The notes beneath the pieces were generated by a model that made no database searches, was not told the origin of the DNA, and worked only from the letters and a program-made list of their open reading frames with translations. Shown here in pieces: positions 115 to 45,514 of a stretch of 45,514 bases of DNA. A program made the position numbers and the translations under genes. The stretch comes from a virus: positions 1 through 45,514 of the IMG/VR virus record IMGVR_UViG_3300032829_000016; one strand, given 5' to 3'. Position 1 is the stretch's first letter. Each line of letters starts with the position of its first letter.

Positions 115-132
115 CAAGGAACTAAACACATG
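110..132 (+). promoter_or_regulatory. Repeated stop-leader-start segment (copy 1)
   Basis: Bases 110-132 run from the TAG stop of the upstream gene through an AAGGA ribosome-binding site to the ATG at 130. They align with 326-349, the stop-to-start interval before the E2-like gene, with three substitutions and one inserted base. Two successive gene junctions sharing nearly the same leader suggests duplicated translation-initiation linkers within this module. Confidence 0.6.
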
Positions 133-330
133 AAGAAACCTAAAGAAAAGCACGATTGGGTGAGCGAGGATTGCTACGATAGATTGCCTCCGCACTATGG
201 TTACTGTGGGCGAAGGCGTTACCGATGTCGGAAGTGCGGGAAGGAATATCGCTGCGCTGAAATCATTCCACCAAAGGACACTTACTGCTCACCGACAATT
301 CTATCTTTGCACAAAAGAGATTCTTTATAG
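130..330 (+). CDS. Small Cys-rich zinc-ribbon-like protein
   Basis: This is a 66-aa basic protein of unknown function. Cysteines at residues 15, 26, 33, 36, 42 and 53 include a CxxC knuckle (CRKCGKEY, residues 33-40), the usual look of a zinc ribbon. The ATG follows AAGGA by 9 bases. The gene lies between the 88-aa gene that crosses the window ends and the E2-like gene at 347, all in one direction with short gaps, so the three are probably co-transcribed. A role as adaptor or nucleic-acid binder is possible but not shown. Bases 130-133 are repeated at 45511-45514, so the right end of the window shows only the first four bases of this gene. Confidence 0.7.
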   Translation: MKKPKEKHDWVSEDCYDRLPPHYGYCGRRRYRCRKCGKEYRCAEIIPPKDTYCSPTILSLHKRDSL

Positions 331-349
331 CGAGGGACTATACACAATG
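326..349 (+). promoter_or_regulatory. Repeated stop-leader-start segment (copy 2)
   Basis: This is the second copy of the leader described at 110-132. It includes the TAG at 328-330, the purine-rich site GAGGGA and the ATG at 347, and supports 347 as the start of the E2-like gene. Confidence 0.6.
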
Positions 350-775
350 ACAAATCAATACATCGAGGACGGGATTGCTCGTCTCAGGACAGAATGGCCA
401 CAGACACATTGCGAACGCAACAAGCACGGGCACCACATGATAGTAGTCCCCAGCGTGAAACTCGCTCCCGGCTATCTTGTTGCAGGTAGCAATGAGAAGG
501 CCACAATCTGCACCGTCATTTTTATAGCCCCGCCCGGATATCCTGCTGCTCGTCCTGACCACTTCTTCACGGACATCGAGCTACGACTTGCAGCTAACAA
601 AGCGATTCCCTACAACACGAATACAGGGAACGGCATGTATTTAGGTAGCCTTGGCTGGCCACAGTGGGCGAAGTCGATGTGGTGGTCGTGGCATCTTCAA
701 ATGTGGGACCCAAATCGAAGTTCGCTGTTCACGTACATGAAGGTGATTGAGCAGAGACTCAATCCGGCGCGATGA
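347..775 (+). CDS. E2-like (ubiquitin-conjugating fold) protein, prokaryotic E2 family E style
   Basis: This 142-aa protein has the run of motifs I associate with the prokaryotic E2 family E proteins of bacterial ubiquitin-like operons. There is a beta-strand region with KLAPGYL (38-44), then PPGYP (62-66), PDHFFTD (70-76), a Trp-rich stretch with WSWH (113-116), and a C-terminal helix SLFTYMKVIEQRL. Length fits a single E2 domain. Cys occurs only at residues 22 and 55, and none lies after the PDHF strand where a canonical E2 has its catalytic Cys, so thioester chemistry is doubtful or non-canonical. No ubiquitin-like protein, E1/ThiF or JAB peptidase is recognisable elsewhere in the phage. 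It could work with host partners, act as a decoy or inhibitor of a host ubiquitin-like defence, or have another role. ATG 347 was chosen over an in-frame ATG at 197 because it follows a GAGGG leader and avoids overlapping the 130-330 gene. Family assignment is from memory of the motif pattern. Confidence 0.7.
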   Translation: MTNQYIEDGIARLRTEWPQTHCERNKHGHHMIVVPSVKLAPGYLVAGSNEKATICTVIFIAPPGYPAARPDHFFTDIELRLAANKAIPYNTNTGNGMYLGSLGWPQWAKSMWWSWHLQMWDPNRSSLFTYMKVIEQRLNPAR

Positions 776-1304: not shown

Positions 1305-1516
1305 AACGCGGACCCACCAAACGGCTGAAGGCCAAAATCACAGCTAATCGCACCAAAGACCCAAGCTATGCCCATGTGCTGTTGCATGCGCTAGCGGGCA
1401 TATATAATCACACGCCGTACGATGTTCGGGAAGCGCGCCTAGAGCATTGGCGCACTGAATGGCCCGAGCTGGTGACCGCGTGCCTGTCCACTTGCTCACA
1501 AACGGGGCGCATATGA
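1301..1516 (+). CDS. Hypothetical protein
   Basis: This is a 71-aa protein with a very basic N-terminus (KRGPTKRLKAK) and a helical middle (YDVREARLEHWRTEWPELV). It starts in an ATGA overlap with the preceding gene and ends in an ATGA overlap with the recombinase start at 1513, so translation is probably coupled along the three. No family is recognised. Confidence 0.55.
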   Translation: MKRGPTKRLKAKITANRTKDPSYAHVLLHALAGIYNHTPYDVREARLEHWRTEWPELVTACLSTCSQTGRI

Positions 1517-2595
1517 GCACGCCATCAATCACCATTTACGTGCGCCACTCGGTCGGCTGCAAATACGCGGGCGACGAATTTACCCGGCGCTGTGACTGCC
1601 GCAAGCATTTGCGCTGGACGAAAGACGGCAAGCAATACCGGCGCGCCGCGGGGTCAAGATCCTGGGAAGGCGCAGAGGAAGCCAAGCGCCGCGTGGAAGA
1701 CGAACTAGCCGGCCGTGCGCCGGTAGCCGCGGCCGCCACGGGCGTGCTGGTATCCGACGCGGTTAAAGAATGGATTAAGACCCGCGCGCAGTCCGGCAAG
1801 AACAACGCCAAGGCCGAAGCCCTGGGGGCCAAGCTGGTGGAATGGTGCGACGCCAAGGGCCTGCTAACCGTGTCCAGCATCACGCCGGCCGACGCTATGG
1901 CCTTTCGGCTAACGCTACCCTATCGCTCGGGCGATTCGTCCAGCCTAAAGGTGCATTGGTCGGTAATCGGCGGTTTCTTCCTGTGGTGCAAGGGCATGGG
2001 CTACGTAGCCCAATCGCCGGTACCGACCGGGCGCGAGAATCCGCAGTTCGCTATCAGGTTCAAGAAACGCGAAGTGCGGCCGCCGACCAAAGCCCAGGTA
2101 GAAACGGTGCTCACGACGGCTACAGGGCGCGCTAGGCTACTGGCGCAGCTCATGCGGTGGTCGGGTATGGCTATTGGTGACGCGATCTATAACAAGCCCG
2201 AAGGCAACCTATACCGCGGTAACCGGCGTAAGACGGGCGAGCGTTTCCGGGTCCGCGTTCCCTTGTGGCTCGCAAATAACTTGCGTGACGTAGACTTTAC
2301 CGCGGTAGAATGGAAAAGCCCGGTGCACTATTGGGAGCACGAATTGCGCGCCGTGTTTGAATCCGCCAAAGTGGACATGACGCCGCACCACTTCCGCCAC
2401 TTCCGCATTACCGAGCTGCTATCCAGCGGCGTGCGCGTTGACGATGTAGCCCTGATGGTAGGCACGTCGCCCAAAGAAATCAGGAAGACGTATCAACACT
2501 GGATCCGAGAAACGGAAGACCGGCTAGACGAACAGCAAAAGCAAGAGTTTCTATTACAGGGGTTGGACGAAAACGGAAACGAGGTAGTGCAATGA
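1513..2595 (+). CDS. Tyrosine recombinase / phage integrase, divergent
   Basis: This 360-aa protein has the architecture of a tyrosine recombinase: a Cys-rich N-terminus (C16, C27, C29, in CDCRKHLRW), an SAM-like core-binding region (about 78-170) and a catalytic domain (about 190-335). Visible catalytic residues are K240, H292-x-x-R295 and the nucleophile Y327. The Arg-I box reads SGMAIGD, with Ala where the usual GLR has Arg, and the box normally reading LGH reads VGT (316-318). Two of six positions are therefore atypical and activity may be altered. The N-terminal style is known to me from acidobacterial integrases, which supports that host range. Start ATG 1513 overlaps the upstream stop (ATGA); the longer in-frame ATG at 1459 lies inside the previous gene. 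The gene would integrate or excise the prophage at the attP suspected at 776-1016. Confidence 0.85.
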   Translation: MSTPSITIYVRHSVGCKYAGDEFTRRCDCRKHLRWTKDGKQYRRAAGSRSWEGAEEAKRRVEDELAGRAPVAAAATGVLVSDAVKEWIKTRAQSGKNNAKAEALGAKLVEWCDAKGLLTVSSITPADAMAFRLTLPYRSGDSSSLKVHWSVIGGFFLWCKGMGYVAQSPVPTGRENPQFAIRFKKREVRPPTKAQVETVLTTATGRARLLAQLMRWSGMAIGDAIYNKPEGNLYRGNRRKTGERFRVRVPLWLANNLRDVDFTAVEWKSPVHYWEHELRAVFESAKVDMTPHHFRHFRITELLSSGVRVDDVALMVGTSPKEIRKTYQHWIRETEDRLDEQQKQEFLLQGLDENGNEVVQ

Positions 2596-3356: not shown

Positions 3357-3721
3357 CGGTGGAACATTCGGCCGCGTTCCCTAACCTTATCGGCCTTCTC
3401 TTGCTGTTCGGCCTTCGCTTCGGCACGGGTCTTAGCGGCATCAATGACGTTAGCTGCTAAGTTCCAGATGTTGAACCGCGACGGCGGCGGCGTGCCCGGT
3501 TCCCACACGTCGGACACGTCAACCCATTCGCGCGTTTTCGGCCGCGGTTCGTAATACGCCTTGCCCGTCTTTGCGTCATATGCTCGGGCCCACCGCGGCG
3601 TGGGGTTTTCAATTTGCGCCATGCCCTTGCGCTGCCCTTTGATTGGCATACGGACTACGACGCCGTACCGAAACCCCAGGCAATAGTATTCGCACGGCTT
3701 GCCGACTTCGGGCTGCCACAT
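3353..3721 (-). CDS. Hypothetical protein, last gene of the leftward operon
   Basis: This 122-aa protein was not recognised. ATG 3721 is chosen because it overlaps the upstream stop as TAATG, matching the tight packing of this operon. Longer forms from GTG 3802 or ATG 3745 would overlap the neighbour more and lack a ribosome-binding site. The N-terminal half is aromatic and beta-rich (CEYYCLGFRYGVVVRMP), and the C-terminus is a charged helix (about residues 90-120). It lies after a small membrane protein gene. Confidence 0.6.
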   Translation of the reverse strand: MWQPEVGKPCEYYCLGFRYGVVVRMPIKGQRKGMAQIENPTPRWARAYDAKTGKAYYEPRPKTREWVDVSDVWEPGTPPPSRFNIWNLAANVIDAAKTRAEAKAEQQEKADKVRERGRMFHR

Positions 3722-3951
3722 TAGAAACGCCCCGCCTTCAGCCATCTGGGATGACGTGAAGGCCGGATAGCATCCAAGATCCGCGGGCAAAACGTCAACC
3801 ACATAAAGAAAATACCGAAGACGGCGATCAAACCGAGAAAGCCAACGGCGATCAAACCGAGAAAGCCAACGGCGATCAAACCGAGAAAGCCAACGGCGAT
3901 TTGTCGAAACGGTTTACGGTTAAACAACCACACCACCAAAGCTAGTATCAT
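3721..3951 (-). CDS. Small membrane protein with an internal octapeptide repeat
   Basis: This 76-aa hydrophobic protein has a first membrane segment MILALVVWLF, then the octapeptide GLIAVGFL-type repeat three times (roughly residues 18-44), then FGIFFMWLTF and a basic tail. The repeat is encoded by an exact 24-bp tandem repeat (3823-3894). ATG 3951 overlaps the upstream TGA (ATGA) and is preferred to GTG 3963. The long hydrophobic stretch should form one or two membrane helices. The function is unknown; a membrane-acting early protein is possible. Confidence 0.6.
   Translation of the reverse strand: MILALVVWLFNRKPFRQIAVGFLGLIAVGFLGLIAVGFLGLIAVFGIFFMWLTFCPRILDAIRPSRHPRWLKAGRF
3823..3900. repeat. 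24-bp tandem repeat, 3.25 copies, inside a coding region
   Basis: The unit ggcgatcaaaccgagaaagc plus caac repeats exactly at 3823-3846, 3847-3870 and 3871-3894, followed by a partial ggcgat (3895-3900). It is a multiple of three and encodes an 8-residue hydrophobic repeat on the minus strand. Exact identity suggests recent slippage expansion, so copy number may vary between isolates. Confidence 0.9.
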
Positions 3952-4286
3952 CGTGCGCCCCACTTCGTGAAGTTCTGCACCAGATATTGCAGATGGTACG
4001 CAATCACTTCCTCTTCAGGCTGCGCGCCCGCCCAGCGTAGCAGCGCCGCGATGACGTGGTAAGACTCATGCGCGATCACACCGGGCGCGGGCTTATGCGG
4101 GAAGATGACCACCGACAACGCGCCCGAGCTGATAGTTACCGCGCCGGTTTCGCTGTTGTCTTCGCGCTTCTCTTCGGGGCACAGCTTCACCAGTTCGGCC
4201 GCCACGTCGTCAACAAACATCACAACCACCGCGTAGCCGTTGAAGGCTTCAAACTGCAGCTTGTGGCGGTGTGTACGTTTCTTCAT
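3948..4286 (-). CDS. HExxH-containing metallopeptidase-like protein
   Basis: This 112-aa protein has AHESYH (a HExxH zinc-binding signature) near residues 72-77, followed about 14 residues later by EEEVIAYHLQYLV, which could supply the third ligand. The pattern resembles small phage proteins with a minimal zincin-like core. No transmembrane segment or signal is evident. Starting at ATG 4286, it overlaps its upstream neighbour by ATGA. Whether it cleaves peptides is not known, and the fold may be retained for another purpose. Confidence 0.6.
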   Translation of the reverse strand: MKKRTHRHKLQFEAFNGYAVVVMFVDDVAAELVKLCPEEKREDNSETGAVTISSGALSVVIFPHKPAPGVIAHESYHVIAALLRWAGAQPEEEVIAYHLQYLVQNFTKWGAR

Positions 4287-4489
4287 ACCGTCAACCTTCC
4301 CCGCACCCGCAGATAAACGGCCGCGGGTATTCGGATGGATCTATAGGCCCGTTTGTGCATCTTTTCAGGCCGTCCGAGCACGATTACGCCGGGCTCGCAC
4401 TCGAATACCCGAATAACAGTTCGGCGTGACAGGCCCAACAGCGCCGCCACTTCAGCCACCGTGTAGACGGGTTTATCTGTGGGCGACAT
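4283..4489 (-). CDS. Small helix-turn-helix DNA-binding protein (excisionase/MerR-like)
   Basis: This 68-aa protein has the classic motif VYTVAEVAALLGLSRRTVIRVF near the N-terminus, followed by a short wing region (GVIVLGRPEK). This is the HTH_17/excisionase-type arrangement. ATG 4489 is preferred over an upstream TTG because most of the extra sequence would lie within the preceding gene. It lies in the late part of the leftward operon and could be the excisionase or a local regulator. Excision control is an inference from family style, not from a binding site. Confidence 0.7.
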   Translation of the reverse strand: MSPTDKPVYTVAEVAALLGLSRRTVIRVFECEPGVIVLGRPEKMHKRAYRSIRIPAAVYLRVRGRLTV

Positions 4490-5018
4490 ATCCCACCACC
4501 GCGCCAATACCCAAAACTTCAAGGGTGTGCACCGCGCGCTTCATAAATGAGCTTTGTTTTTTCAGCGTGGTAATCTGCCCGTCTTTTTCGGTTAAGATCT
4601 GGGCATCCTTGGCGCGTAGCTGCGTGCAGCCGTCTAACTTGGCTTCGGTAATCTTGCACGCCATCAGGTCTTTGTAGAGCGGCAGCGCATCCACCGTTAC
4701 CGCGGTAGGCAAGCCGGGCACCGGGCGCACGTCTAACGGCAACGCGCTAACCTTGGGTATTTCCGCGATGGCCTGGGCCGGCGTCTGCACCTTAGCGCCC
4801 TGGACCTGCAGCGCCGTAACCTTTTGGCCCATCTGTTTGGTGATGGCCGCTTTGTCTTGCTGCAGCCCCGCAATGCGGTCTTGCGCCTGTTGCAAGGTAA
4901 ATTCGGCGCGCACCCGCGCATCGTGTTGCTGCAGCCACGCGACCGCGCACACCGTGATTAGCAGGCCGCACGCCAATAGAATCAGGGCCTCAAAATGGTT
5001 GTGTATAAACTGCGTCAT
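4473..5018 (-). CDS. Membrane-anchored coiled-coil protein (possible spanin-like)
   Basis: This 181-aa protein has an N-terminal membrane helix (ALILLACGLLITVCAVAWL, about residues 11-29), a long heptad-rich helix (about 35-70), a proline-rich middle, a second short coil (about 140-160) and a hydrophobic C-terminus (LGIGAVVGYVA). ATG 5018 follows AAGGGGTG and begins two bases after the polymerase stop. The architecture would suit an inner-membrane spanin or a periplasmic scaffold, but it sits in the replication operon away from the endolysin, so the lysis role is only a suggestion. Confidence 0.6.
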   Translation of the reverse strand: MTQFIHNHFEALILLACGLLITVCAVAWLQQHDARVRAEFTLQQAQDRIAGLQQDKAAITKQMGQKVTALQVQGAKVQTPAQAIAEIPKVSALPLDVRPVPGLPTAVTVDALPLYKDLMACKITEAKLDGCTQLRAKDAQILTEKDGQITTLKKQSSFMKRAVHTLEVLGIGAVVGYVAHR

Positions 5019-5020
5019 AA

Positions 5021-7051
5021 TCACCCCTTCGCGTACCTTTCCCCTTCTGCGCCGTCCGCGGCCATCAGCAACCCCGCGGCCCAATCGGGCACGGTCGCCA
5101 TATAGCCGTTTAGCGTCGGCAGCGCGTCGTTAAATTCAGCGTCCGTTAGCGTAATGGCTTCATCGTGGCAATGACCCACCAGCTCATACCGCGGATCTGA
5201 TTCAATGCGCCCCAGCGCGTCGGTGATAAGATCCGCGGCAATCGCTTGCACGACGTTTTCGCACAGCTTTCCGCCGTACGTAACTTGGTGCGTCCAGGCG
5301 CTAACCTTGACGCCTTCAAAACCTATGGTGCGTTCCTTGCCACCCTTCACGTACTCTTCGTGTGCGAATGGGTTGTGATAGAACAGCGGCCGCCCGGACG
5401 GCAAGATAATGGCGAGCGCCGGCGCGCGATACTCGAAACGCAGCACGCCAACCTTCTGCGGTTTCTTCGCGCGGGCGCAATGGAAAAACGCTTCCTCTAG
5501 GTAGTACCAAAGTTCGCAGACCGCCTGGAACGCGTCACGGAATACGTCAACCTGTTTCTGCGCTTCCTCTTGGGTCAACTTCATACCTAACTGCTCGGCA
5601 TATTTCCACAAGCCCGTTTTAGTCGCCAACAACGCGCTTTGTACGGGCGTGTCGCACTCGGGGCACTTATGCACGCCGGGCTTTAGCGCGTTCCATTTCT
5701 CGCCGCATGCGCACTTGCACGGGTAAACCAACTTCCCACCACCCAGGCCGAAGCCACAACCCAGCGTGCCCGGCTTCGCCTTCTGCCTTAGTTCCTTGCT
5801 TACTTCCTCATAATCCAAGTCCCATAGGCGCGTGGCAAAGTCAATGTATGGGTCACGCCCCTGGCGATAAACTTCCTGCATCGGCTTGCAATCACTTACC
5901 CACGCAAGCACCCGGTTTTCTACCGAGCTGAAATCCGATACCACAATCTTCTTACCCTTGGGCGCGCGGATAAGTGGGCGGCCGCAGAATGAAAGCGCGT
6001 CCAGACTTTCTACCGGGCGGCGGGCTGCTAGGTCTTCGATGCAGCGTTTCAAAGTTGCCTTGTCATCTGGCGTACGCGGTACTTTCAGGTTTTGCACCTG
6101 GGCACCACGGCCCGACCACCGCCCGGTATGCGCCCCGTAAAACTTGAATTGCTCACGGAGCCGGCCGTCTTCCGAAACCGTTTGCAGAATCTTCGGGAAC
6201 TTCTTAACCGCGGTCTTCGCGCACGCAAGACGCAGCCGTAACGCATCCTTGGCGGGCCCGTCTTCCTCTAGCGGGTCTTCTACGAACCGTTTCACAAATT
6301 CTTTGCCCAAACTGGTGTATGTATAACCGCGCTTGGTAACCCAATCCATAAGTTGCTTAGGTGAGTTCGGATTATCCAGCCCGGTTAGATCCTTCAATTG
6401 CTGGTGCGCAATTGCTTCCAGCCGTGCCGCTTCCTGATGCGCATAGGCGCACATATCCAGGTCGATGGGCAGCCCGCGGCGGTTAATCCTTTGGTCTAGC
6501 AACCACGCTTGATAAACGCGGTCGGGTATCGGGAAGCGCGCCGCGCACCATTGGTAGATCATGCGGGTATCGTGCACGTCGGCCATACAGTATTCGCAGA
6601 ACTTGGCCCAATCTTCGGGATCCGTGTTACGGTCACGGATGCGCCCGTCTTTCTGCGGCCGGCAGAACTTGTTAATCAGTAACTTCTCTTTGGACGTGGC
6701 CGCCTGCCCGTTAAAGAACGGCACGCGGTTGGCTTCCTTCAGACCCGCGGGTAAGCCGGCGAAGCGCGCCTGCACCATCGCGTCTAGGTAATCCATACCG
6801 CGGTAACCGCCGACCACATCTAACACGGTGCGCTCGAACGACACATTCCACGCAACTAATGGGCCTTCGCCCTGCAGCGCCCGCGCCAACCTATCGGGCA
6901 ACGGTTCGCCTTCCTGCCACAACTGCACCGGCCCAGATTCCCCAGCGTACGCGCACATCAGAATGCGCGTGGACGGGTGCGCGGCATAACGGTCAACCGC
7001 GCACTTCGTCAAATCGAGTTCGCTAAAGGTTTCCAGGTCGAGGAAAATCAC
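5021..7051 (-). CDS. Family A DNA polymerase with 3'-5' exonuclease and a zinc-ribbon insertion
   Basis: This 676-aa phage replicative polymerase shows exonuclease motifs DLET (D5, E7), NVSFE (69-73) and YxxxD (Y154, D158). Polymerase motif A is SDFSSVENR (D373), motif B runs from R422 and K426 to G431-x3-G435, and motif C is HDE (629-631). The T-GRWSGR segment (309-315) is also typical. Right after motif B there is an inserted ribbon with Cys at 445, 447, 449, 463 and 466, in the fingers region, unusual for a Pol I-type enzyme. The start is GTG 7051, overlapping the upstream stop as GTGA. It is the core of genome replication, working with the primase-polymerase (12621) and the ssDNA-binding-like protein (11592). 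Confidence 0.95.
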   Translation of the reverse strand: MIFLDLETFSELDLTKCAVDRYAAHPSTRILMCAYAGESGPVQLWQEGEPLPDRLARALQGEGPLVAWNVSFERTVLDVVGGYRGMDYLDAMVQARFAGLPAGLKEANRVPFFNGQAATSKEKLLINKFCRPQKDGRIRDRNTDPEDWAKFCEYCMADVHDTRMIYQWCAARFPIPDRVYQAWLLDQRINRRGLPIDLDMCAYAHQEAARLEAIAHQQLKDLTGLDNPNSPKQLMDWVTKRGYTYTSLGKEFVKRFVEDPLEEDGPAKDALRLRLACAKTAVKKFPKILQTVSEDGRLREQFKFYGAHTGRWSGRGAQVQNLKVPRTPDDKATLKRCIEDLAARRPVESLDALSFCGRPLIRAPKGKKIVVSDFSSVENRVLAWVSDCKPMQEVYRQGRDPYIDFATRLWDLDYEEVSKELRQKAKPGTLGCGFGLGGGKLVYPCKCACGEKWNALKPGVHKCPECDTPVQSALLATKTGLWKYAEQLGMKLTQEEAQKQVDVFRDAFQAVCELWYYLEEAFFHCARAKKPQKVGVLRFEYRAPALAIILPSGRPLFYHNPFAHEEYVKGGKERTIGFEGVKVSAWTHQVTYGGKLCENVVQAIAADLITDALGRIESDPRYELVGHCHDEAITLTDAEFNDALPTLNGYMATVPDWAAGLLMAADGAEGERYAKG

Positions 7052-7467: not shown

Positions 7468-8026
7468 GTTTCGCAATCTCCGCGTAAAGTGCCCTAGCGG
7501 CGGCGCGTAACTCGGGCAGCGTTGCGGCCGTCAAGGTGTAATCCCACCCGGTATAGCCGTCTAACGCGCATTCGCTCGGGTGCGGCGGCACGTCAACGTC
7601 GGGCGGCGTGGTACGTACCACCTTGACCAAGTAACCACCCATCGCATGCACGGCTTCACATTCGTTCGGAAAACGCACATCAGTAATCAGGGCCATCGGC
7701 GGGTTTTCAAATTGCAATCGCGCCTGTAGCCGGCCCACCCAATAATTCGGATCCTGGGCACGGCGGTAATTCGTGCCGTACCATTGCAGTAAGGTGCGTT
7801 GCTTGGCCCCGCCCGGTTCGGCATGGACCCAGGACGGCGCGCCGATCTTGTCTATAAATTCCTGCACGCCGCCCGCTAAGTTCACTTCATGTATTACTTC
7901 CCTACGCAGTTCGTCCGCGAAGGCGCAGATGCGGCCACCATGACCAATCGGCGCGGCATTCATCATGGCAACCGCGGCCGTGTTCTTACCCTGTCTCGCG
8001 CGATGTCCGAAGCCTATAACTAGCAT
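7445..8026 (-). CDS. Deoxynucleoside monophosphate kinase-like P-loop protein
   Basis: This 193-aa protein has an N-terminal Walker A (GHRARQGKNT, residues 7-16) and the later signature ALITDVRFPNE, both typical of phage dNMP kinases of the T4 gp1 type. These phosphorylate dNMPs for DNA synthesis in the cytoplasm. The start at ATG 8026 overlaps the upstream gene by 7 bases. The location beside the polymerase supports a precursor-supply role. Substrate range cannot be read from sequence. Confidence 0.8.
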   Translation of the reverse strand: MLVIGFGHRARQGKNTAAVAMMNAAPIGHGGRICAFADELRREVIHEVNLAGGVQEFIDKIGAPSWVHAEPGGAKQRTLLQWYGTNYRRAQDPNYWVGRLQARLQFENPPMALITDVRFPNECEAVHAMGGYLVKVVRTTPPDVDVPPHPSECALDGYTGWDYTLTAATLPELRAAARALYAEIAKRGPRAIS

Positions 8027-8223
8027 GGACTTACCCTTTCCATCGCATCAAAAAGTAGGTTTATGGCGTCAATAAGTGGCGTGCGGTCTTCCAGTGCATA
8101 TGTGCCTATAAGATACCCGGCCGCACACAGTAAACGGGTCTGCGCATATGCGTTTCGGAACCCTGCCGCGCGCCACCGCCATACCAGCTTTAGCCGGGCG
8201 TATATAAGACGCAGGCGAATCAT
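8020..8223 (-). CDS. Small basic hypothetical protein
   Basis: This 67-aa protein begins at ATG 8223 in an ATGA overlap with the phosphoesterase stop. The N-terminal half is very basic and aromatic (LRLIYARLKLVWRWRAAG); the C-terminal half is an acidic helix. No family is recognised. The extended in-frame form starting upstream would lie wholly over the phosphoesterase gene and is not supported. Confidence 0.55.
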   Translation of the reverse strand: MIRLRLIYARLKLVWRWRAAGFRNAYAQTRLLCAAGYLIGTYALEDRTPLIDAINLLFDAMERVSPC

Positions 8224-8981
8224 TGGCCGTACACTTTTCCGCCGTAGGCAAACCGGCCGCGAAACACGTTGACCAAAAAGTTGTTGAACATGCCGTTGCT
8301 GAAAAATTCGGTGATAGCAAAACCGTTCAACCAACCGGTGGGCGATTTCTTCAGGTATTGCATGTCCAGTTTGCCAATGCAGGGCACGCTATACGCCTGC
8401 CACTTATTGGCGCTCGAATGGGGCAATATCTTGGTCGCACACGCGGCCGTGTGGAAGTGGCCGAACTGCAGGTTTTCCACGTAAGTGTCTAGCGCCTTCT
8501 TAACCGGGTTAGCGCCGCGCAGTACGTCGCCGTGGATCCACTTCAGCCGGCCGCGCTTGTAGTGCTCGCCCTGCCCGCGGACAATCCAGCCCTGTTCTTT
8601 CAGGTCCAGATATTCGGCAAAGTCCAACAGGCCGTCTAACTCGGGTTGCTCTTCTATGAGCTGACGCGCCCAATCTTCGTGGTTGCCGTCCAACCACACT
8701 TTGACTGCGCCCTTCGGCAGTAGCGCCATAACCGGATCCAGCATGACGCGCCGGAAACCGTCCAGGTCTTTGCGCATCTGCCCTTGCGGCTTATAGAGCG
8801 GCTTCGATTTGTTGTGGTGCGAAATGGATCCACAATCCAGGTTGTCACCGCCGAACACGAACAGGCCGACGCGGTTACGCTTCAGGAAATCCAGCACCGC
8901 GGCCCAAGTGGGTGCGTCAATGTGCGGGTAATGAGAATCAAAACAGCTAACCGCGGTTAACACGCTGTTGCTACGTTGCAT
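8220..8981 (-). CDS. Calcineurin-like metallophosphoesterase
   Basis: This 253-aa protein has the full set of metallophosphoesterase motifs: D15-x-H17, GGD (44-46), GNHED (99-103), HGD (150-152) and GHFH (174-177), which bind two metals. Phage versions occur in replication operons and may act on nucleotides, nucleic acid ends or signalling molecules; the substrate is unknown here. ATG 8981 is preceded by GGAG 7 bases upstream and overlaps the methyltransferase gene end. Confidence 0.85.
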   Translation of the reverse strand: MQRSNSVLTAVSCFDSHYPHIDAPTWAAVLDFLKRNRVGLFVFGGDNLDCGSISHHNKSKPLYKPQGQMRKDLDGFRRVMLDPVMALLPKGAVKVWLDGNHEDWARQLIEEQPELDGLLDFAEYLDLKEQGWIVRGQGEHYKRGRLKWIHGDVLRGANPVKKALDTYVENLQFGHFHTAACATKILPHSSANKWQAYSVPCIGKLDMQYLKKSPTGWLNGFAITEFFSNGMFNNFLVNVFRGRFAYGGKVYGQ

Positions 8982-16917: not shown

Positions 16918-17418
16918 ATGGTCGACACCGTACGCGTCTTAGTATCGTGGCAGTGCAACATGAAGTGCCCGTATTGTTGCAACGACACACTGCCTGAAGT
17001 GCGCGCCGGCATACGCCCCGCGCGGCTGGAAGACCTAGACGCAGCTCGGTACAAGGTGGTGTGCATATCAGGTGGTGAGCCCCTAATGTTCATGTCCAAG
17101 GTGCGCGACGCGTGCCGTTGGGCCGCGGGCCGCTACATCGTACTGTACACCAACGGGCTTTTGCTGACGCCCGAAACCGCAGTGATGCTGGTGTCTTGGG
17201 GTGTGCGGGCGATCAACGTGGGTCTGCACAATCCCACCACTTTCGGGCCGCTTATCGCCCGCGCCCGCGCCGCGTTTGCGGGTCTGCCCGTGTCGGTTCG
17301 ATTTCACGTTGAAAACACGCACACATATTTAGCGGGCGCATACCCAGGTTTGGCTTTCCGTTTCTGGCAGCGCGACGACTGCGCCCGGGCCAATGAAGAC
17401 CGCGTGATACTGCAATGA
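16918..17418 (+). CDS. Small radical SAM protein
   Basis: This 166-aa protein has the radical SAM signature CNMKCPYC (C13, C17, C20), which binds a 4Fe-4S cluster. A SAM-binding SGGEP motif (51-55) follows, with beta/alpha units after it (IVLYTNGL, GVRAINVGL). It is short for the superfamily, about half a full barrel plus, and lacks an obvious auxiliary-cluster domain. The reaction is unknown; base modification, an activase-like role or a defence-related nucleotide chemistry are all possible. Phages use radical SAM enzymes for such purposes, but no partner such as an NrdD or queuosine gene was seen. It is preceded by a striking operator region and coupled by ATGA to a LigA-like gene. Confidence 0.85.
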   Translation: MVDTVRVLVSWQCNMKCPYCCNDTLPEVRAGIRPARLEDLDAARYKVVCISGGEPLMFMSKVRDACRWAAGRYIVLYTNGLLLTPETAVMLVSWGVRAINVGLHNPTTFGPLIARARAAFAGLPVSVRFHVENTHTYLAGAYPGLAFRFWQRDDCARANEDRVILQ

Positions 17419-25980: not shown

Positions 25981-28561
25981 GTTAGCTGTTTACTGCCTGC
26001 TCGCCACACTAGCGTTTGGGCAGACTAAACCCGATTGGAACCAGATTAAGAATAAGCCGACGTTCCTACAATCGCCGCTTACGAGCAAGGGCGATATTTG
26101 GGTACATACGGCGACCGGTGACGCGCGGCTACAGATTGGCCCAGATGGGTATTGTTTAACGGCTGACAGCTCGCAGCTCACGGGTCTAAGTTGGATGCCC
26201 ACCTGTGGCGGCACGGGCGGCGGGTCCAATCTAAACTGGCGCGGGTCATGGCAATCAAGCACCACCTACGGACAAGGTGACATCGTTTTTTATCAAGGGT
26301 CCAGTTACATAGCGATACAGACATCTAATAACATTGTGCCCACCAATACTGCGTATTGGAATATGGTCGCCCAAGTGGGTGCTCAAGGCGCGAAGGGCGA
26401 CCCAGGCGCACAGGGTGCCCAGGGGCCGCAAGGTCCACAAGGTAACCAGGGGCCGCAAGGTCCACAGGGCGCGACAGGGCCGCAAGGTCTGAAAGGTGAT
26501 ACCGGCGCGCAGGGTCCGCAAGGTATCCAGGGCCCGCAGGGCGCAACGGGCGCAACGGGTGCCCAAGGTCCACAGGGCCCGCAAGGCCCACAAGGCCCGA
26601 GCGGCGGCACAACGAACTGGCGCGGTGCTTGGTCTAGTGGCGCGGCATATGTGGCCGCTACCTTTGATTCCGTCAATTACAACGGCGCGTCGTTTGTTGC
26701 TATTCAGAACAGCACGAACCAACCGCCGTGTTCGGCCAACCCGTGTAACTCACAGGCTAGCGTTAATACGGCGTATTGGCAGACGTTGGCCCTTGCTGGT
26801 GCAAAGGGCGATACAGGCGCAACCGGCGCGACCGGCCCGCAGGGTGCAACCGGTGCGACCGGCCCGCAAGGTCCGCAAGGCGCGACCGGCCCGCAAGGTC
26901 CACAGGGCCCGCAAGGTCCACAAGGCCCCGCGGGTACAGCCACCGCGGCCGGCACGCAATACGACATCCAGGTGGCAGGCACGGGAAGCCCGGCGCAATT
27001 AGACGCTGACACCGGTATGCTAACGCACAATAAAACGACGCACACCACCACATTGCAAAACGTGAATGTGGCCGGCACTTGGAATGTAACCAGTTCCAAC
27101 CCAACGCAGTGGTCGGGTAAGAAGTGGGTGGGCACTACTGTTACGGTTCCCACCGGTATGGATTTCTCGCTGGGGCTCGGATCCGATAGCGCGCTGAAGT
27201 GTCAATTAGCGTCGGGTGCAAGTTGCATACCTAACGCGCCAGTTACGTCGGTGGCTGCACGTACGGGCGATGTAGTGTTGACGAAGGCAGACGTGGGCCT
27301 AAGCGCAGTTACGAACGATGCACAGCTAAAAGCATCGCAACTTTCCACAGACGGTGCATTTACCGACAATTCGGACGCGGAAGTACCGAGTCAAAAAGCG
27401 GTGAAGACGTATGTGGCCGCAAACGGCGGCAGCATACCCGGCTGGACGGTTAGCGGTAGCGGCAGCAGTCAAGTGGTAACCGCGCCGGGGACGTTGGCAG
27501 CCCAGCAAGTACAGCCCGGCTCGCCCAGCGCGGCGGCCAAAGCGGCTTTACCAGCCGGAACGCACGGTTTTAGTTGCGACGCAACGGCTAACGCTGGGGT
27601 GCCTGCGTCCGGGGTTGATTACGTCCGTTGTGATTCGACGTTGGGGTTAGTGCAGTCAGTAAATGGCGGCCCGGAATCACAGATAGGAAGCGGCTCGGGT
27701 AGCGGCAGCGGCCCTATTGCGTTGTTGGTAGACGGTACGTCAATTGACCGGGGTTATAACTCGGGTGACCCCTGGGGCCCGACGAACACGGCGGGTTCGG
27801 GCGCGCCAAACGACTGCGCCGGTGGGGCGAGTTACAACCCGCAAACGACCACCGGTCTAATGGGAACCACCACCTGGACGGCTAAGGCGCTTCAGTTACC
27901 AGCACTAAAGGGAAATGTTACATACGTGCAGAATTTCGCACATGATGGCGGTTGGGTGTCCGATGCCCAGGGTCACTACGATTCGAGTTATAAGACTATC
28001 TGTCAACACGCGGGTAGCACATACCAAAAGGTAATTTACGCCCTGGACAGCGGCGGCAATGACTTGTATGGATGGCAGGAAAGCCTAACGTGCAACGCCA
28101 ATAACAACGGGGAACAAACCGCGGCCGCAACATTTACGCAGTTAGATAACCTGTGGAAAGAGGCTAGAACGGACGGTTGTAAAGTGGCGGCGTTCACGCT
28201 AGCACCACGCACCGATATTTCGGCCGCGGCGGAAGTGCAGCGGCAGTTACTTAATCAGTCCATCCGTACGTCGCTTGATTATGACTATCTAGTAGACGTA
28301 GACCGCATTCTAACTGATGCGTCGTGGTCAACTTCGGACGGCGTTCACTGGACAAGTGCGGCGCATACCGTGGCCGCCCGGCAACTTAATTCTGCGATCA
28401 CTTCGGGCGGAAATCTCGGACCTGTAACAAACACGATACTACCGTTGACACCTGCAGACAACCGAGTATGTCAGTCCGGGTCTATGTGGTTTGACTCTAA
28501 CTACATCTATGTGTGCACAATAAGCGGAACAGTTAAGCGCGCCGCGCTGGGGGGTTTCTAA
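25958..28561 (+). CDS. Secreted-type collagen-like, CBM-like, SGNH hydrolase protein
   Basis: This 867-aa mosaic protein begins with a Sec-like signal peptide ([16 protein letters not shown], residues 7-22). [10 protein letters not shown] fibre-type motif follows, then two carbohydrate-binding-like modules (NWRGSW...YIAIQ...AYW and NWRGAW...FVAIQ...AYW), each followed by a collagen-like Gly-X-Y tract (75 and 45 residues). Next come a [10 protein letters not shown] fibre motif and a C-terminal SGNH hydrolase. The hydrolase shows DGTS (nucleophile S595), GGND (N701) and DGVH (D794, H797). It probably deacetylates or esterolyses a surface glycan during adsorption. The signal peptide is unexpected for a virion protein. 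ATG 25958 is chosen because upstream codons only shadow the previous gene. Confidence 0.8.
26378..26602 (+). repeat. Collagen-like coding repeat, tract 1
   Basis: Twenty-five consecutive Gly-X-Y triplets (mostly GPQ, GAQ, GAT) are encoded by near-identical 9-bp units. The protein would trimerise as a collagen-like stalk. The repetitive DNA explains several long open frames on other strands here, which are not genes. Confidence 0.9.
26798..26932 (+). repeat. Collagen-like coding repeat, tract 2
   Basis: Fifteen Gly-X-Y triplets (GAT, GPQ) form a second collagen-like stalk after the second carbohydrate-binding-like module. Near-identity to tract 1 makes it prone to recombination or length variation. 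Confidence 0.9.
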
Positions 28562-45183: not shown

Positions 45184-45207
45184 GCCGGGCGTCTTCGGAT
45201 GCCCGGC
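45184..45207 (+). terminator. Strong UUCG-tetraloop hairpin before the E2-like module
   Basis: GCCGGGCGTC (45184-45193) and GATGCCCGGC (45198-45207) form a 10-bp stem, with one G-U pair, closed by the very stable C(UUCG)G tetraloop, and are followed by CTTTCA. It is probably a terminator or attenuator ending the early operon. Only 21 bases separate it from the next ATG, so the downstream module may depend on read-through. Confidence 0.6.
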
Positions 45208-45228
45208 CTTTCAATAAGGAGTGAGAGT

Positions 45229-45495
45229 ATGAGCAAAGACCCCAACGAGCAGATGGCTTCCATGCTCCGGCAAATTCGCGGCCTTCTTCCTGCGACCGAT
45301 GAGTTTATGTCGATGGAATTGCCTTTTGCGGTTCAGCGTTACGTCAATCAACTCGGCTGTAGAGCTAGTGATCCAGTGGCCGCAGCGGCGACAGTCAAAG
45401 ACTTGGAAACCGACCAATACAACAAAGCGTGGTCGCACGTTCTGCGAATACTCAACGAGGAATACGAAGAGCCGGAGAAAGGAGTGAGGGTATAG
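45229..45495 (+). CDS. 88-aa hypothetical protein, first gene of the E2-like module
   Basis: This 88-aa protein is mostly helical and acidic (NEQMASMLRQIRGLL, ELPFAVQRYVNQLG, NKAWSHVLRILNEEYEEPEK). It is not a recognisable beta-grasp ubiquitin-like protein and lacks a C-terminal Gly-Gly. ATG 45229 follows AAGGAGTGAG. The last 37 codons are repeated at positions 1-114, from where the module continues into the zinc-ribbon and E2-like genes. Confidence 0.6.
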   Translation: MSKDPNEQMASMLRQIRGLLPATDEFMSMELPFAVQRYVNQLGCRASDPVAAAATVKDLETDQYNKAWSHVLRILNEEYEEPEKGVRV

Positions 45496-45514
45496 CAAGG
45501 AACTAAAAACATGA
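45382..45514. repeat. Terminal direct repeat (right copy)
   Basis: This is the second copy of the 133-base repeat described at 1-133, differing at 45508. The last four bases begin the gene read in full at 130-330. Confidence 0.9.

Follow-up and report, generated by a model that had tools for sequence, protein, structure and literature searches.

Lone BubB-like E2 proteins in several unrelated phages suggest an enzyme copy used to jam or hijack Bub

What does a phage gain from a single protein of a bacterial ubiquitin-like conjugation system when the proteins that normally accompany it are missing? The question is raised by a gene at positions 347 to 775, plus strand, of a viral DNA of 45,514 nucleotides (IMG/VR record IMGVR_UViG_3300032829_000016), referred to as the window. 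The gene encodes a protein of 142 amino acids that contains PPGYP, PDHFFTD and WSWH sequences (the last within WWSWH) and a C-terminal helix, from which the original prediction had read it as a family E E2 without a canonical catalytic cysteine that serves as a decoy or inhibitor of a host ubiquitin-like system or else hijacks host conjugation.

The family assignment is borne out by the Pfam profile PF14462 (Prok-E2_E), which matches the protein with E=3.3e-9 and 37 bits against a curated cut-off of 25, so that the resemblance is not due to chance. A Shine-Dalgarno-like GAGGGA (332 to 337, plus strand) lies ahead of the ATG at 347, and the phage relatives of the protein use the same or a nearby start methionine in the alignment. 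The AlphaFold2 model, computed from 18 aligned sequences, has a pLDDT of 92.9 and a UBC-like fold as had been predicted; its top PDB match in Foldseek is Citrobacter BubB in complex with BubCD (9eae_C, E=5.9e-4, TM 0.70/0.77), and a profile of this branch in turn finds BubB at 6e-8. Membership of the E2_E family and the UBC fold are near certain, and the protein is a new variant, carried by phages, within a family already known and not a new kind of protein. Weaker matches of the model are to Ubc13 and to the UEV domain of Vps23, and E2 folds that lack the cysteine, such as RWD and UEV domains, serve as binding modules; the phage protein may likewise be a UBC/UEV-like domain repurposed for binding, with a role in the phage or the lysogen that has nothing to do with Bub.

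The gene belongs to a phage, as had been supposed. The record encodes a terminase, portal, head protease, major capsid, tail proteins, DNA polymerase and integrase, and the relatives of the terminase are phages (identity up to 46%, too low to indicate the host). Its ends carry a direct repeat of 133 bp (left copy 1 to 133, right copy 45382 to 45514) of which the first 126 bp are exact and which contains one mismatch; the genome, classed as linear, is therefore probably complete and circular, with the E2 gene inside the phage and not in a host flank. Host flank and misassembly were ruled out on the grounds that the terminal repeat and the integrase enclose the gene, that the ends match and that three further phages carry the gene. 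It is preceded at a distance of 16 bp by a cysteine-rich ORF of 66 amino acids with CxxC pairs (130 to 330, plus strand), which has no confident family in Pfam and PHROG profile searches and is possibly part of the same transcription unit. A 98-amino-acid ORF without a family match (45199 to 45495, plus strand) runs into the terminal repeat and would, if the genome is circular, be the adjoining upstream gene, continuing at 1 to 114. On the other side lies the gene for a tyrosine-type integrase (1459 to 2595, plus strand; phrog_1, E=2.7e-21) that identifies the phage as temperate. The E2 gene is held in a stretch of low GC content across the circle junction (about 0.45-0.52 versus 0.57 overall). 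Elsewhere in the window, an apparently short phage ORF at 16918 to 17415 contains CNMKCPYCC near its start, a radical-SAM-like cysteine motif.

The window is not the only virus with such a gene. Relatives with 56-66% identity in the matched segment are found in three more virus contigs, L003 (64.6 kb, with ends that overlap exactly over 127 bp), L012 (30 kb) and L013 (37 kb), and all four virus copies score above the PF14462 cut-off. Their carriers are dissimilar phages in which the major capsid families all differ (phrog_10, phrog_9953, phrog_283 and phrog_371), and the gene occupies four unrelated positions: near the integrase in the window, in a DNA-replication region, in the structural cluster of L012 between the portal gene and the gene preceding the major capsid gene, and before a gene for a HerA-like ATPase. 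In all four phages the GC content of the E2 gene is 5-10 points below that of its own phage, as for an acquired accessory gene. Searches of 50,697 named phage records, of PHROGs and of the viral structure library yielded no relative, and a match in L066 was attributed to chance. Within the collections searched, the existence of the lone phage clade is well supported.

All four copies stand alone. Profiles for Bub partners (multi-ubiquitin PF14452, ThiF/E1 PF00899, DUF6527 and others) detected none in the four virus records, and tblastn with real Bub proteins together with the profiles returned no Ubl, E1 or DUF6527 above chance in the phages; the adjacent multi-ubiquitin and ThiF/E1 genes that mark a Bub operon are lacking in each record, and the same searches agree with the initial remark that the Ubl, E1 and JAB partners are absent from the window. 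A weak 33-residue match in G002 (28042 to 28119) was rejected because it falls in an unrelated ORF. The contig L092 was the sole candidate for a lone viral E2 of the PDMF branch: at 3616 to 6432 it encodes an E2 of PDMF type and a ThiF/E1 that is truncated and directly followed by a recombinase-like frame of 581 codons. As the truncated ThiF gene adjoins the recombinase-like gene, the contig is taken to show a Bub operon into whose E1 gene a prophage appears to have inserted, and not a lone phage gene. Defence cargo is common in prophages, and the integrase of the window phage would suit a gene for defence or superinfection exclusion, whereby a lone E2 strengthens or completes host Bub against competing phages. 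This explanation is very unlikely in view of the missing partner genes and of the L012 copy, since a structural cluster is an unusual place for a defence gene expressed by the lysogen.

The protein has only two cysteines, C22 and C55, both of which precede residues 73-81, and none follows strand 4, where a classical E2 has its catalytic cysteine. The cysteine is thus missing as first described, but it was wrong to expect one, as family E E2s are generally without the classical E2 cysteine. The PDMF-type operon E2s examined have no cysteine at the PDxF position of the alignment. According to Iyer et al. 2006 (PMC1779556), the operon-linked family E E2 lacks the conserved cysteine and likely binds ubiquitin, and a 2024 review repeats that the E2 of the polyubiquitin operon is inactive (PMC11354881). 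Because the family E2s of Bub operons themselves lack the cysteine, its absence is neither specific to phages nor proof of inactivity, and the view that its loss marks a degenerate or inactive E2 does not stand. The S-x-H motif is intact.

This motif, S114-W-H116 (686 to 694, plus strand), is present in 41 of the 41 family loci examined and lies 13 residues ahead of helix 2, which spans residues 127-137 in the AlphaFold2 model. Its spacing to helix 2 presumably resembles that of the cysteine in classical E2s, and Bub reportedly may act through a serine ester. S-x-H is a candidate active site of the phage protein, and its retention alone favours neither an inhibitor nor an active enzyme.

In contrast to the phage copies, the other bacterial loci that were checked are all part of Bub operons (36 of 36, made up of 17 of the 18 loci from a genome scan, 12 of the 13 found in 300 genomes from the family to which the L026 metagenome-assembled genome described below belongs, and seven more from the phylum), and seven annotated plasmid Bub operons are also among the relatives. 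The operons of the nearest bacterial relatives have the layout multiUb-E2-ThiF-(phosphotransferase)-DUF6527. In one Bub operon (L028, 11233 to 12377), the DUF6527 profile matches two consecutive genes. The nearest relatives by identity (about 31-44%) are the PDCF-type operon Prok-E2_E proteins of Bradyrhizobium, Mesorhizobium and Deinococcus plasmids and of diverse bacterial genomes, which unlike the lone copies are all linked to multi-ubiquitin and ThiF genes and have cysteine at position 72 and phenylalanine at 113.

The fifth lone copy is chromosomal. It was found by the genome scan in L026, a chromosome of an Acidobacteriaceae metagenome-assembled genome (MAG), where a PDHF-type E2 gene that is 69% identical (7992 to 8414) has a GAF-domain gene on one side and a PilZ gene on the other. 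The MAG has no multi-ubiquitin match and only two ThiF matches above the cut-off, neither of them near the E2 gene; when an empty site was sought, no close relatives of the neighbouring GAF gene were found. A zf-UBP protein is encoded about 4 kb upstream of this E2 gene. The chief difficulty for a link to Bub is this lone copy, whose genome yielded no Bub system. Together with the varied phage positions that include the portal and pre-capsid site of L012, it speaks for the repurposed binding domain introduced above. Residues conserved in operon BubBs would not, however, be expected to survive the loss of all Bub contacts, and the repurposing is on balance improbable.

In the phylogenetic tree all five lone copies group together with a support of 100/100, beside or inside the operon-linked PDCF branch, and as they form a single clade the association of the lone state with histidine reflects one evolutionary event and not five. 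At PDHFF (residues 70-74; 554 to 568, plus strand), His72 replaces the cysteine that is invariant in the operon-linked sister branch (PDCFW there, and PDCF(W/F/Y) across the branch). Histidine occupies the PDxF position in five of five lone copies and never in the 36 non-plasmid operon loci, which have cysteine, methionine or occasionally another residue. In addition to C72H, which is defined relative to the nearest operon branch, the lone clade is distinguished by F113W, T75, I77 and a small insertion exclusive to it around WPQW (residues 104-107; 656 to 667, plus strand). The lone copies otherwise retain all residues that are broadly conserved in operon BubBs, including S114, H116, W112, W120, D71 and R137, and the best-conserved blocks of the clade, 61-80 and 111-140, hold the motifs.

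Judged from codon comparisons, the lone copies are under purifying selection: diverged pairs have identities of about 0.7-0.8, 0.75-0.88 and 0.4-0.5 at the first, second and third codon positions, and the frame is open in all five copies. The conserved residues and the selection together imply that the phage proteins are maintained and are not decaying. A stray host gene captured as a passenger without function, to which the low GC content relative to the phage genome and the sporadic distribution might point, is already disfavoured by this signature and by the recurrence in four phages, and is barely credible.

The retention of every conserved operon-BubB residue, with the S-x-H block the most conserved of all (identity 0.92 over residues 111-120) and only the neighbourhood of the site altered, would also fit an active phage E2 which takes E1-activated host BubA and redirects conjugation to targets of the phage's choosing. 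Against such an enzyme stand the replacement by histidine of the invariant cysteine of the nearest operon branch and the fact that the phages encode no E1, Ubl or known substrate, and it is considered unlikely.

The reading that we favour, at a little short of even chances, is that the protein is a phage mimic of BubB which works in trans on the Bub of the host, most probably as a competitor for E1 or Ubl. Encoded by a movable accessory gene that comes without its partner genes, this BubB homologue would take the seat of BubB on the E1 (BubC), on the ubiquitin-like protein BubA or on both, where the remodelled surroundings of S-x-H (C72H, F113W and the WPQW insert) would block passage of the Ubl to its normal targets, and the phage would thereby escape or mute Bub. 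That it binds E1 or Ubl, and in which direction it acts, is what we infer; the top fold match to BubB, the relatives in Bub operons, the clade with 100/100 support, the occurrence in four phages, the selection and the conserved motif blocks suggest a mimic. Against an anti-Bub role, a sample of 300 genomes from the one candidate host family contained just 13 with any E2_E. The notion of a decoy or a hijacker with which the analysis began would still be the best mechanism.

Comparison with known systems places the protein closest to Bub. It shares with Citrobacter BubB (PDB 9eae/9eav) the UBC fold, homologous sequence, S-x-H and the absence of cysteine from the aligned motif region, and differs in its lack of BubA, BubC and BubD partners, in H72 and the WPQW insert and in being phage-borne. 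Polyubiquitin operons of type 6e, in the accessible text of Iyer et al. 2006 (PMC1779556), likewise include an E2/RWD-like domain without the catalytic cysteine that is proposed to bind ubiquitin; there the domain is described as operon-linked, and that text does not report phage copies. BilB of the BilABCD antiphage systems is also a bacterial E2 fold, but its catalytic Cys138, part of a CEHH motif (PMC11354881), has no counterpart in the phage protein, and PADLOC defence models, which include BilABCD and CBASS E2, gave no match for the proteins of the window, L003, L012 and L013. Bub operons are numerous and their regulation involves known antiphage regulators, and protection against phage has not been shown for Bub (PMC13373217), for which reason the argument here runs from the phage gene to its suspected function.

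A lone BubB clade that selection maintains in several dissimilar phages points indirectly to encounters of phages with Bub, and its members are a specific reagent for testing the antiphage role of Bub. Possibly, though with somewhat less than even confidence, they make up an anti-Bub phage protein family built from the system's own E2, with which viruses imitate a ubiquitin-like conjugating enzyme of bacteria. The existence of an anti-Bub protein would imply an antiphage role for Bub, and a phage protein that inhibits or hijacks Bub would be a parallel to the use of host ubiquitin enzymes by eukaryotic viruses.
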